A DNA stretch of 64,000 bases, from NCBI RefSeq assembly GCF_005405005.1, contig NZ_BJDH01000001.1, positions 310,001 to 374,000 on the forward strand, in the 5' to 3' direction. How positions within the stretch are numbered: the stretch's first letter is position 1; each line of letters opens with the position of its first letter. The notes beneath the pieces are model-generated. The model saw only the letters and a program-made list of their open reading frames with translations. It had not been told where the DNA came from and did not search any database. The translations under genes and the position numbers were made by a program. This DNA is from Lactiplantibacillus daoliensis (GTDB lineage: Bacteria > Bacillota > Bacilli > Lactobacillales > Lactobacillaceae). Shown in pieces: positions 15,721 to 18,457 of the stretch.

Positions 15721-17373
15721 TTATTTTTCGATATAAGTGTACTTATAATTCCACTGCGTTCCAGCGGTGTTGTGAATAATCCCTTTGACTTTTGGATTAA
15801 CTAAGAACGAGTAGACCGTTTGATAGACGGGCGCAATTGCTTGGTCCTTCATCAAAACTTGTTCCGCATCAATCATATCTTGCCAACGCGCATCCGCATT
15901 ATTAGCATCTTGATTAGCCGCTTTATCCACTAAAGCATCGTATTTGGCACTGCTATATTTACCAAAGTTATAGCCACTATTTTTTTGGAAAATTTGTAAA
16001 TACGAGATGGGATCATTAAAGTCCGCTCCCCACATCCCCAGATACAGGTCAAAGTCACCAGATTCACGTCGTTGGGTCATTACTGACGCTGGAATGTTAG
16101 ACAGATCCACGGTTAGTCCGCTAAGTTGCTTTTCTAATTGGCCTTTATAATACTGTGAAACTGGCTTATTAGGTTCTTCATTCGACGAAACCATCCGCAA
16201 GGTCAGCTTCTTCAACCCAGTTTCTTTCAAACCTTTCGCCCACAGCTTTTTAGCCAGGGTTGGATTGTAATCCACGGTATTTTTCAAATAGGCTTGATCT
16301 GCAAAATCTTGGCCCGTTTTCGGATTATTAGCCAAGTCCTTAGCAACTAATCCCTTAGCCGTGCTAGAATCATCCCCGATAACCTTAGTCACTAATTGCT
16401 TCCGGTTAATGGCTAATGAAATGGCCTGGCGAATATCTTTATTGTTCAATGCTTTTTTAACAGTCGCATCCGACGCATTAAAGTTATAGGACAAGAATTG
16501 GGTGATTGAATATGGATATGTCTTATAATCCGCGTTGTGCTTCAAATTCTTGACTTGCTCACTGGATAGTTGCGTCAAGTCTAACTTTTTATCTTGGAAC
16601 AAATTAAGTGTCGTTGTTGTACTTTCATTAACGGTGTAATTAATTTTGGTTAAGTGCACGGATTTCTTATCCCAATATTGGTCATTTTTCACAAATTGCC
16701 AACGGTTATTCGTCCCAGTCCAACCGACTAATTTGAAGGGCCCACTATAGAGCATGTATTGTGCCTTGGTAGCATACTTGCTCCCCCACTTTTTAACGGC
16801 TGTTTCACTGACTGGTCCAAATAATGGATAAGTCATCAACTTCTTGAAATATTTGATTGGCGTCGAAAGCGTCACAACAAACGTGTGCTTTCCAACTGCC
16901 TTAACACCTAATGTACTTGGGTCCTTTTTACCGGCAACAATCCCATCCGCATTTTTTACGCCAGAGAACAGATATGCGTACTGTGACTTCGTTTTCGGCG
17001 TGACTGCTCGTTGCCAAGAATAAACAAAATCTTGAGCAGTAATTGCTGAGCCATCGCTCCATTTAGCATCACGAATTGTAAATTTGTAAGTTAGGCCATC
17101 CTTTGAAACACTAGTTTGACTCGCAAGTCCGGGCGTGACGCTCCCATTTTTGCCCAGTCGATATAAACTTTCAAAAATATTCCCAGTCGTCCCAAAACCA
17201 GATGACTTTGAAATATCGATCGAGTCTAATGTGCTTGGATATGATAAATTCAGCACTTGTTTGGCAGCATATTGACCATTACCACTTGTTTGGGACTGTT
17301 GCTTGCCACAAGCGGCCAATACCGTCACTAATAATAAACTAAAAATAACTGCTAACACTGATCGCTTTTTCAC
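15721..17373 (-). CDS. oligopeptide ABC transporter substrate-binding lipoprotein (OppA family)
   Basis: Extracellular solute-binding protein of family 5, anchored to the outer face of the membrane. The first 22 residues form a lipoprotein signal ending in the lipobox LAAC (Cys22). The mature part has family-5 features such as WSDGSAITAQDFVYSWQRAV and NKDIRQAISLAINR, and the 550-residue length is typical. The start is GTG at 17373, with AAGGGG upstream. It is an orphan: no permease or ATPase gene adjoins it, so it must share a transporter encoded elsewhere. It is preceded by a leader of about 270 bases with a Met/Cys-rich small ORF and terminator, which suggests a link to sulfur amino acid or cysteine-containing peptide supply. 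Confidence 0.93.
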   Translation of the reverse strand: MKKRSVLAVIFSLLLVTVLAACGKQQSQTSGNGQYAAKQVLNLSYPSTLDSIDISKSSGFGTTGNIFESLYRLGKNGSVTPGLASQTSVSKDGLTYKFTIRDAKWSDGSAITAQDFVYSWQRAVTPKTKSQYAYLFSGVKNADGIVAGKKDPSTLGVKAVGKHTFVVTLSTPIKYFKKLMTYPLFGPVSETAVKKWGSKYATKAQYMLYSGPFKLVGWTGTNNRWQFVKNDQYWDKKSVHLTKINYTVNESTTTTLNLFQDKKLDLTQLSSEQVKNLKHNADYKTYPYSITQFLSYNFNASDATVKKALNNKDIRQAISLAINRKQLVTKVIGDDSSTAKGLVAKDLANNPKTGQDFADQAYLKNTVDYNPTLAKKLWAKGLKETGLKKLTLRMVSSNEEPNKPVSQYYKGQLEKQLSGLTVDLSNIPASVMTQRRESGDFDLYLGMWGADFNDPISYLQIFQKNSGYNFGKYSSAKYDALVDKAANQDANNADARWQDMIDAEQVLMKDQAIAPVYQTVYSFLVNPKVKGIIHNTAGTQWNYKYTYIEK

Positions 17374-17431
17374 ACCTGTTCGCCCCTTTAATTTTCATCT
17401 TTTTTTATCACAACTTACCCCAACCGGAAAC

Positions 17432-17476
17432 AAAAAAAACGCCTGTCTAGAATCTCGTCAGATTCCAAGCAGGCGT
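17432..17476 (-). terminator. leader terminator (putative attenuator) upstream of the peptide-binding protein gene
   Basis: On the minus strand ACGCCTG pairs with CAGGCGT below an inner stem GAATCT/AGATTC, followed by eight T. It lies between the leader peptide ORF and the GTG of the transporter gene, which transcription must pass, so regulated read-through is likely. The segment AATCTGACGAG in its loop nearly repeats AATCTAACGAG at the end of the leader ORF. Confidence 0.85.
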
Positions 17477-17489
17477 GCGTTTCAAACAT

Positions 17490-17512
17490 AACGATTTGAG
17501 CTCAAACTCGTT
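17490..17512 (-). promoter_or_regulatory. leader hairpin overlapping the leader-peptide stop codon
   Basis: AACGAGTTTGAGCTCAAATCGTT is nearly a perfect palindrome that overlaps two bases of the TAA at 17513-17511. A ribosome terminating there would cover it. It sits between the first leader hairpin and the terminator. Confidence 0.55.
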
Positions 17513-17615
17513 AGATTTGTTGCACTAGAGATGCTTGTAATTCAACGCAAATAGCCATGTTGTTAGAGTCACAACATGGGCAGCACATCATCATTTGCGT
17601 CAAATTATTTTTCAT
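17511..17615 (-). CDS. Met/Cys-rich 34-residue putative leader peptide
   Basis: This small ORF starts at ATG 17615 with GGAGAG nine bases upstream and encodes MKNNLTQMMMCCPCCDSNNM followed by AICVELQASLVQQI. Five of 34 residues are Cys (11, 12, 14, 15, 23) and five are Met. It has no signal peptide and no recognised fold; CCPCC could bind metal but is short. The promoter at 17650-17679 transcribes it, and a terminator follows before the peptide-binding protein gene. A 9-bp stem (17555-17579) overlaps the CCA TGT TGT codons. The layout fits ribosome-mediated attenuation by cysteine or methionine supply; this is inference and no homolog search was possible. Confidence 0.7.
   Translation of the reverse strand: MKNNLTQMMMCCPCCDSNNMAICVELQASLVQQI
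17545..17600 (-). promoter_or_regulatory. two-part leader hairpin over the Cys codons
   Basis: The outer stem is ACGCAAAT/ATTTGCGT and the inner stem CCATGTTGT/ACAACATGG, both perfect (8 and 9 bp). The TGC TGC CCA TGT TGT codons lie inside it. A ribosome stalled there would open the structure. Confidence 0.65.
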
Positions 17616-17649
17616 AGCAAGCGTCTCTCCGATTTCATAAGATGGTTTC

Positions 17650-17679
17650 AGTATAGAGATGACCACTTACTTTTGTCAA
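17650..17679 (-). promoter_or_regulatory. promoter of the leader and peptide-binding protein gene
   Basis: A perfect TTGACA (17679-17674) is 18 bases from TATACT (17655-17650) on the minus strand. Transcription would start near 17643, about 28 bases before the leader ORF. Confidence 0.82.
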
Positions 17680-17785
17680 GTGATTATTTTGGACACAATT
17701 AAATTTATCTTGGCCAGGACATTTGAAATTCAACCCATATAACGATTAAACTAGGGATAAAGCATTACTCTAGGAGGAATAAAAG

Positions 17786-18457
17786 TTGGATAATATTGCC
17801 GAATCGATTTTCAAAAATCAGCGTGGTCGTACTGAAAAATTATTAAAGGCCGGCTTCCAAAAACGGGGACAACAATTTGTGAACCAAAGCTCATTTCTAG
17901 CGGATGCTTTCACGCTGACAATCACCGTCACACTCCCTCACACAGTCATCACAGAATTAATTGATAACGAAACGCAACAACCCTACACCCTCCATTTAAA
18001 TGCAAATAACACTGGGGACTTCGTGGCTCAGGTTCGAAAAGCCTATCTTGATACCCTTCAAAAACTCGCCGATCAGTGTTTTGATCAGGATGTCTTTCAA
18101 ACTGAGCAAGCCCATTTATTGATTCAAACGATCAAAAAAAATTATGGTGATGAACTGGAATTTCTTTGGAAAAAATTCCCTGACAATGCGATCTGGCGTC
18201 GATCCGACACTAAAAAATGGTATGCCCTGTTGATGAAAATCTCCAAACGCAAGCTGGGCCTAGATTCCGATGAAGTCGCCACAATTGTGGACTTTCGTTT
18301 AACAGCCAAACAGCACGATCAACTGATCGACAATCAAACTTATTTTCCTGGCTATCACATGAACAAACAACATTGGTTCACCATTCTTCTGGATGGTAGC
18401 GTCCCAGATGCCGACCTACTCAAACTGTTACAAACCAGCTACGAGCTCGCACAATAA
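17786..18457 (+). CDS. MmcQ/YjbR family protein
   Basis: A 223-residue cytoplasmic protein. Its C-terminal half (about 105-222) carries the MmcQ/YjbR signature: WYALLMKISKRKLG, then FPGYHMNKQHWFTILLDGSV and the terminal LLQTSYEL. The N-terminal half, with FLADAFTLTITVTLP, is less familiar. The family is structurally likened to DNA-binding folds but its role is unknown. The start is TTG at 17786, with AGGAGG eight bases upstream. It is transcribed away from the peptide-binding protein leader and stands alone. Confidence 0.85.
   Translation: MDNIAESIFKNQRGRTEKLLKAGFQKRGQQFVNQSSFLADAFTLTITVTLPHTVITELIDNETQQPYTLHLNANNTGDFVAQVRKAYLDTLQKLADQCFDQDVFQTEQAHLLIQTIKKNYGDELEFLWKKFPDNAIWRRSDTKKWYALLMKISKRKLGLDSDEVATIVDFRLTAKQHDQLIDNQTYFPGYHMNKQHWFTILLDGSVPDADLLKLLQTSYELAQ

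Follow-up and report, generated by a model that had tools for sequence, protein, structure and literature searches.

The trp, his and leu attenuators of enteric bacteria combine a short open reading frame carrying a run of regulatory codons with a terminator and an exclusive antiterminator, the position of the ribosome setting which of the two forms. In Firmicutes, leader peptides for amino acids were described as new and exceptional in 2010, T-boxes usually serving in their stead, and histidine leader peptides that take the place of a T-box before hisS/hisZ have been described in bacilli (Naville and Gautheret 2010, PMC2965389). Mycobacteria have leaderless polycysteine short open reading frames, rich in cysteine codons and located upstream of genes, which are attenuators with a predicted cysteine response (PMC9094748, citing Canestrari et al. 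2020), and in lactobacilli cysteine and methionine T-boxes precede sulfur genes and allow read-through upon binding uncharged tRNA (PMC6004538). These articles, like all others cited below by PMC number, were available only in part, and statements about their content extend no further than those parts.

Here, we analysed a window of 64,000 nucleotides from Lactiplantibacillus daoliensis (contig NZ_BJDH01000001.1, positions 310,001 to 374,000), in which the minus-strand gene of an orphan OppA-type peptide-binding lipoprotein is preceded by a leader, all of whose features lie 5' of the gene on the same strand. In our judgement this leader is very likely to be a cysteine-responsive leader-peptide transcription attenuator, its cysteine response and the stalling of ribosomes on it being inferred. 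It has in common with the enteric attenuators an open reading frame with a codon run, a terminator and an exclusive antiterminator set by the ribosome; unlike them, it would read cysteine, occurs in a Gram-positive family before uptake and sulfur genes, and carries its antiterminator strand inside the upstream open reading frame (uORF), where it overlaps the sequence that sequesters the ribosome-binding site of the uORF itself. A short, cysteine-codon-rich open reading frame upstream of genes is also what it shares with the mycobacterial examples, which are leaderless (PMC9094748), whereas the oppA uORF does not meet that criterion, having a Shine-Dalgarno ribosome-binding site and a transcript start inferred from promoter placement to lie ~30 nt 5' of its start codon; it is further accompanied by an intrinsic terminator and an antiterminator, and we claim no kinship. 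As in bacilli, where this was called a notable finding, a leader peptide takes the place of a T-box in Firmicutes, although the peptides there concern histidine and hisS/hisZ, and no cysteine leader is described in the available part of that article (PMC2965389). Finally, the leader and the T-boxes of lactobacilli have the same class of sulfur genes and read-through in response to uncharged tRNA in common, but a T-box binds the tRNA directly (PMC6004538), whereas the oppA leader, which lacks an Rfam match, would act through a translating ribosome. Mechanisms of this kind are known; new to us are the amino acid and the phylum, the double role of a single uORF region against the ribosome-binding site and as antiterminator, and the spread over several sulfur genes. 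No paper describing this leader was apparent in the open-access literature, subscription literature lying outside the scope of our search.

A conserved leader in Lactiplantibacillus

Genes in the window were named by reading their open reading frames (ORFs). The order gap-pgk-tpi, clpP, oppA-type gene, argG, luxS corresponds to lp_0789 to lp_0791, lp_0786, lp_0775 and lp_0774 of L. plantarum, and because the gene order matches these locus tags, we equate the oppA-type gene with lp_0783 by synteny. No permease or ATPase genes were seen among its neighbouring ORFs, and the nearest solved sequence relatives of the lipoprotein are 5kzt, 6npo and PrgZ (4faj).

With the leader DNA as query, a search of 397 Lactobacillaceae genomes strongly matched each of the 21 genomes in the genus, amounting to 22 copies (two in genome G211), in every one of which the uORF, the helices and the terminator are kept. 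Such conservation, in 22/22 copies, argues that the leader is not due to chance; related species in these counts are not independent. Outside the genus no convincing relatives of the leader DNA were found, the other 337 of 358 matching genomes having E-values of 0.003 or worse. A peptide-profile search of genome contigs returned 13 loci, of which 12 carry species names, in every case Lactiplantibacillus, and one belongs to an uncultured Lactobacillus bin, and a search of plasmids with the uORF peptide returned nothing. The leader in the window has the following features:

17674-17679, minus strand: -35 box TTGACA of the leader promoter; CTTGACA kept in 22/22 genus copies
17650-17655, minus strand: -10 box TATACT; no change in the genus alignment
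17622-17630, minus strand: ribosome-binding site of the uORF, GGAGAGACG, also the 5' arm of helix P1, which sequesters it; P1 paired in 95.2% of alignment cells
17511-17615, minus strand: leader uORF MKNNLTQMMMCCPCCDSNNMAICVELQASLVQQI, including the stop codon; CCPCC, NM, ICV and LQAS in 22/22 copies
17571-17585, minus strand: putative cysteine-sensing codons TGC TGC CCA TGT TGT (CCPCC), 10-12 codons past the start in 22/22 copies
17555-17579, minus strand: P3, a 9-bp hairpin across the second cysteine pair; nine pairs with zero variation in 22 sequences
17532-17548, minus strand: switch strand GCGTTGAATTACAAGCA, the CVELQA codons, forming the antiterminator 5' arm and also facing the uORF start region; standard antiterminator pairs in 99.2% of cells, pairing with the ribosome-binding site and start in 90.4%
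17527-17534, minus strand: 3' arm of P1, GCATCTCT, partner of the uORF ribosome-binding site by alignment pairing
17483-17519, minus strand: P4, a hairpin across the uORF stop codon, nested within the antiterminator by alignment pairing
17456-17471, minus strand: TGCTTGGAATCTGACG, the terminator 5' arm and loop and also the antiterminator 3' arm; identical in 22/22 copies
17432-17475, minus strand: intrinsic terminator, a strong hairpin with eight T
15721-17373, minus strand: regulated gene, an orphan OppA-type peptide-binding lipoprotein (SBP_bac_5 by family match) with a GTG start

An initial annotation of this DNA had listed several of these elements, and we find them as it described: the promoter, the 34-amino-acid uORF with a ribosome-binding site (GGAGAG upstream), ten sulfur-containing residues within it (five cysteines and five methionines), the run MMMCCPCC, a perfect 9-bp stem (CCATGTTGT/ACAACATGG), a palindrome on the stop codon, which is present as a hairpin, and the terminator with its eight T. 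A further 8-bp stem exists in the window's species and is not kept as such in the folds of its relatives. Homologous leaders lacking a conserved cysteine-rich ORF would have refuted the annotation, and that ORF is kept.

The promoter matches the consensus at 11 of 12 positions; a promoter scan of the region gave two sites, against 2.0 expected by chance. A simple pattern scan for terminators found none in the region, leaving that of the leader unreported. Compared with shuffled sequences, the window leader folds with a z of -6.67, none of 200 shuffles being as good. No Rfam family matched the leader, the T-box covariance model RF00230 gave no match at 17200-17900 with E-values up to 1, and the single match in the window at the Rfam gathering score is a tRNA. 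The genome of the window contains 32 T-boxes, none at the position of the leader.

All 22 copies encode CCPCC followed by NM[AV]ICV.LQAS, with the first cysteine after 10, 11 or 12 codons. Separately, the spacer beside the -35 box (TTGACAAAAGTAAG, window positions 17656-17680) is kept in 21/22 genus copies beyond promoter needs and may be an operator. As a feature common to the whole family this putative operator was rejected, being confined to the genus, though a similar stretch, TTGACAAAAAGTAAGT, is present at an ABC operon in another genus (L056).

Competing helices and ribosome position

No convincing antiterminator had been apparent by eye in the initial annotation; one is nonetheless present and conserved. 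The CVELQA codons pair with TGCTTGGAATCTGACG, and 10 of the 12 pairs are invariant in the alignment of 22 leaders. All 16 bases of TGCTTGGAATCTGACG are fixed, loop included, while their partners on the 3' side of the terminator drift, mostly via G-U pairs, so that terminator pairs within the antiterminator zone vary on the 3' side only, as expected for a stretch with two partners. The region of the switch strand also pairs with the ribosome-binding site and start codon of the uORF, through 16 pairs, and P1 shows compensatory change: one of its pairs is found as AU, UA, CG, GC and UG and another as CG and UA. Since invariant pairs alone are weak evidence, we base the antiterminator on the drift pattern, on the folding test and on the other genera. 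The near-repeat AATCTAACGAG/AATCTGACGAG, to which the annotation had drawn attention at the end of the ORF and in the terminator loop, exists in just two of the 22 copies (L001 and L003); it is not a conserved element and was rejected as antiterminator.

For the 22 genus sequences, folding was calculated on RNA ending at the terminator loop, to mimic a transcript just made, with the bases under a ribosome held unpaired. The mean probability of the antiterminator was 0.04 without a ribosome and 0.06 with a ribosome at the stop codon, and it was 0.93 and 0.97 with a ribosome stalled at the first and the last cysteine, respectively, and the upstream sequence masked. Masking the stalled footprint alone brought the mean down to 0.14, though the window's own species gave 0.95-0.98, and the helix over the ribosome-binding site prevailed in most species of the genus, so that this site must be occupied or out of reach. 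Departures occurred in the stop state, in which the antiterminator reached 0.51 in L004, 0.37 in L006 and 0.32 in L008, and L004 also gave 0.16 when stalled at the first cysteine and 0.99 at the last. By the whole-arm measure, shuffles reached the observed value in 9, 0, 0, 4 and 0 of 25 cases for five genus leaders, the 9 being the window's own. In full-length RNA the terminator always prevailed, and the switch would consequently need to be kinetic. By calculation only, then, the antiterminator of oppA leaders is predicted to exclude the terminator and to depend on where the ribosome stands when the ribosome-binding site is masked.

Leaders and T-boxes across the Lactobacillaceae

Orthologues in other genera were taken as the best oppA-type match in 61 of the 62 other-genus Lactobacillaceae genomes with a match; the 62nd, G030 (50% identity), was placed among 20 paralogue controls, which were lower-ranking matches, chosen mostly in listed order and not all of those available. 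Under a strict rule (a start codon with Shine-Dalgarno-like bases, 12-60 codons and at least three cysteines in six residues, within 480 bases), a cysteine-cluster uORF is present in 43 of the 61 orthologue upstreams, against 0/20 paralogue upstreams and a mean of 0.8, with a maximum of 2 of 61, in 20 rounds of shuffling. Nor was any seen upstream of 20 homologues from outside the family; these share only 38-42% identity and are not orthologues. The strict leaders have a terminator in 41/43 cases, spread over ten other genera, and the two without one are doubtful (L120, and L126, which overlaps a tRNA region). A looser rule, requiring at least two cysteines in six residues and at least three overall, gives 47 leaders, 44 of them with a terminator, including the doubtful L111.

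For 26 of these 44 leaders, against 3.4 expected, the terminator arm did better in the stalled state than 24 or all of 25 shuffles; by a measure restricted to the base of the stem, 15/44 beat shuffles. The stalled state exceeded the no-ribosome state in 37/44, and it exceeded the state with the stop codon and the upstream sequence masked in 41/44, a comparison biased in favour because more of the sequence lies under the second mask. Most of the g25 leaders fail these folding tests.

These upstream regions weigh upon the idea that the transcript starts constitutively, that its terminator is of the ordinary kind and its ORF there by chance, and that a protein at the promoter regulates the gene through the conserved AAAAGTAAG beside the -35 box. 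Within the genus this idea can draw on TTGACAAAA(A)GTAAG, kept in 21/22 copies, but none of the 61 orthologue upstreams from other genera has the promoter element, and cysteine-cluster uORFs with terminators recur in ten other genera against zero in controls, which leaves the idea scarcely credible.

Across genera the spacing of the cysteines varies (CCPCC, CCMPCC, CCSMC, CCC, CCQC and others), and outside the cysteines the peptides are for the most part unrelated. That neither the spacing nor the remaining residues are kept counts against the uORF being a functional cysteine-rich small protein, or a metal- or redox-sensing nascent chain in which CCPCC would be a thiol site and binding would cause stalling. 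Such a role is suggested by the strong conservation of the peptide within the genus, where 17 aligned peptides, out of 19 distinct ones, have 15 invariant columns, by a value of 2.77 for lp_0783 in a cadmium-tolerance proteomics table (PMC5430759) and by the rise of lp_0783 with copA and copB in acid (PMC7645587). However, the residues conserved past the cysteine run in the genus are largely those with helix-forming codons, and the downstream genes are those of sulfur uptake and synthesis, not efflux; we regard a role of this kind as unlikely. In the acid table lp_0783 (2.61) goes up together with cblB, cbs and cysE (PMC7645587), and it is also up at 1 h with acyl-homoserine lactone (PMC6459948). 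The acid, cadmium and acyl-homoserine lactone data fit a sulfur signal, and none of them tests one; published expression data with and without cysteine for lp_0783 were not found.

Besides the cysteine-responsive attenuator that we favour, cysteine and methionine T-boxes were found before orthologues of the same genes. All 18 orthologues without a strict cysteine uORF were searched for T-boxes, and in six cases (L085, L097, L095, L100, L104 and L114) a T-box with AUG as its specifier was found, L097 alone reaching the Rfam gathering score and the other five lying below it. Weaker cysteine uORFs occur in 4/18 (L091, L098, L111 and L125), and 8/18 have neither a cysteine uORF nor a T-box, L135 having an ORF with scattered cysteines and no terminator. 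The loci with no cysteine-cluster leader or T-box found upstream are L127, L128, L130 and L132, of genus g26, and L116, L118, L135 and L136. To calibrate the position of the specifier, we used the T-boxes that precede cysS (GAAG-UGC), tyrS (GAAT-UAC), metA and metN (GAAG-AUG) and metE (GAAAA-AUG) in the window's genome; cysS and tyrS pass curated cut-offs, and the names of the Met genes rest on their best matches. Across the T-boxes of that genome, whose genes are partly named by reading, the spacer past GAA ranges from 0 to 2, so that the specifier assignments are likely, not certain.

In L. paracasei, cysK2-ctl1-cysE2 is induced without cysteine, with signs of premature termination at a palindrome, and the available part of the article calls its control 'yet to be discovered' (PMC6004538). 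We chose cysK2-type genes by their score against a cysK model, the set comprising 24 of 25 other-genus hits at 285-334 bits and all six genus hits; L. paracasei itself is not included, and L240, which has an internal stop and no cysteine uORF, was left out. Cysteine-cluster leaders precede 23 of these 30 genes (17/24 in other genera, 6/6 in the genus), against a mean of 0.3 in shuffles. Ordinary cysK genes, which score above the curated cut-off, have a cysteine cluster in 1/25, and genuine cysK genes were on this count excluded from the leader set. A Cys_Met_Meta_PP gene (ctl1) lies downstream of the cysK2-type gene in L241 and L243, the two loci inspected.

Upstream of the cysK2-type genes at L241-L264 and L265-L270 there are cysteine-rich uORFs and terminators, for example MTQLTSNALNNCCCRTARLLRCSAC in the genus. 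The terminators of L265-L270 have the form GGGCGCGA...TCGCGCC followed by T, with L267 a variant, which by eye is the form of the published palindrome; an exact search for the palindrome core in the first 264 loci, to which L265-L270 do not belong, found none. In antitermination tests of 26 cysK2 leaders (L254 was excluded, the scan having picked a different uORF), none reached the top ranks by the whole-arm measure and one did by the stem-base measure, against 2.0 expected in each case, and the stalled state exceeded that without a ribosome in 3/26. Pairing of CGCG codons past CCC with the base of the terminator, seen in folds of L265 and L268, was rejected as no better than in shuffles. As the antitermination test was negative, our claim for cysK2 genes is limited to a leader and a terminator.

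The second copy of the whole leader in G211 (L031, G211:C1:1272000-1281000) is intact and stands before an amino-acid ABC operon, as though the attenuator had been transferred in one piece, like a module. This operon has the order permease-permease-ATPase-binding protein and is of the polar amino-acid/cystine type, no curated substrate-family cut-off being reached. Its first gene has homologues in 23 out of 151 genomes; a search upstream of every one of these found T-boxes before 11, two above the gathering score. Five would read AUG (L049, L059, L060, L061 and L063), two UGC (L045 and L046) and four UGC or GUG (L051, L053, L054 and L058). In genus g21 one transporter is under a T-box read as UGC (L045, L046) or AUG (L049), possibly a switch of specificity. 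Cysteine-containing uORFs precede the ABC operon at L052, L056 and L057, independently and in two other genera, and one of their peptides ends ...MMACC at the stop. The L. paracasei operon glnP2-glnM2-artM2-glnH4, which has a cysteine T-box, was higher without cysteine than without methionine (PMC6004538); its homology to the L031 operon is not established.

The AUG reading of the T-boxes found in place of the oppA leader, together with a methionine share of 12.1% in the genus peptides, could be taken to mean that the leader senses methionine through MMM, or a general slowdown of translation, and not cysteine. However, the methionine run (ATGATGATG, in 18/22 copies) is not invariant, MMM being absent in L013, L016, L021 and L031, and the methionine share of 12.1% falls to 6.0% and 1.8% in the other leader sets, the last being that of the cysK2 leaders. 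The methionine figure is the informative one here, because choosing peptides for cysteine raises the cysteine percentages of both the other-genus and the cysK2 set. With MMM not fixed and the methionine share dropping across leader sets, methionine sensing was rejected, and we hold the explanation as a whole to be very unlikely. The initial annotation had left the choice between cysteine and methionine attenuation open: the cysteine part is strongly supported by comparison, CCPCC being present in 22/22 copies, and the methionine part is not supported, MMM missing in 4/22.

Proposed mechanism and implications

Conserved parts, competing pairings, a dependence on ribosome position in folding calculations and family-wide cysteine-cluster uORFs are the observations from which we propose a cysteine-responsive attenuator, in which the cysteine response, ribosome stalling, a second ribosome and the cargo of OppA are inferred, without experiment. 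RNA polymerase would start ~30 nt before the short ORF, and a ribosome would load on the uORF. With ample Cys-tRNA, this ribosome would pass CCPCC and reach the stop codon, after which the switch strand would be covered or re-paired with the ribosome-binding site and start region; the terminator would form and oppA would remain untranscribed. When Cys-tRNA is scarce, the ribosome would stall at the cysteine codons and the next ribosome could hold the ribosome-binding site. The freed CVELQA strand would then reach past the stop-codon hairpin, enclosing it, to pair with the 5' arm and loop of the terminator, and with the antiterminator formed, polymerase would read into oppA.

A wider reading, which we offer only tentatively, is that of a Lactobacillaceae leader-peptide cysteine regulon comprising oppA, cysK2-ctl1 and, in a subset of genomes, a sulfur amino-acid ABC operon, exchangeable over evolution with cysteine and methionine T-boxes, with the oppA switch gated by two ribosomes. 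In such a gate, the conserved distance of 10-12 codons from the start to the cysteines would let an initiating ribosome hold the ribosome-binding site behind the stalled one, and occupation of this site by the second ribosome would be the only way in which the switch strand is freed to antiterminate.

The analysis identifies a candidate leader family in Lactiplantibacillus and ten other Lactobacillaceae genera. It offers a testable answer to the question of how cysK2-ctl1-cysE2 is controlled, left open in the available part of the published work (PMC6004538), and suggests that the published upstream palindrome is the terminator of an attenuator. It also points to cysteine- or sulfur-containing peptides as the cargo of the orphan binding protein, by inference, and the exchange of leader peptides and T-boxes before one gene provides a model for replacement among sensing RNAs.
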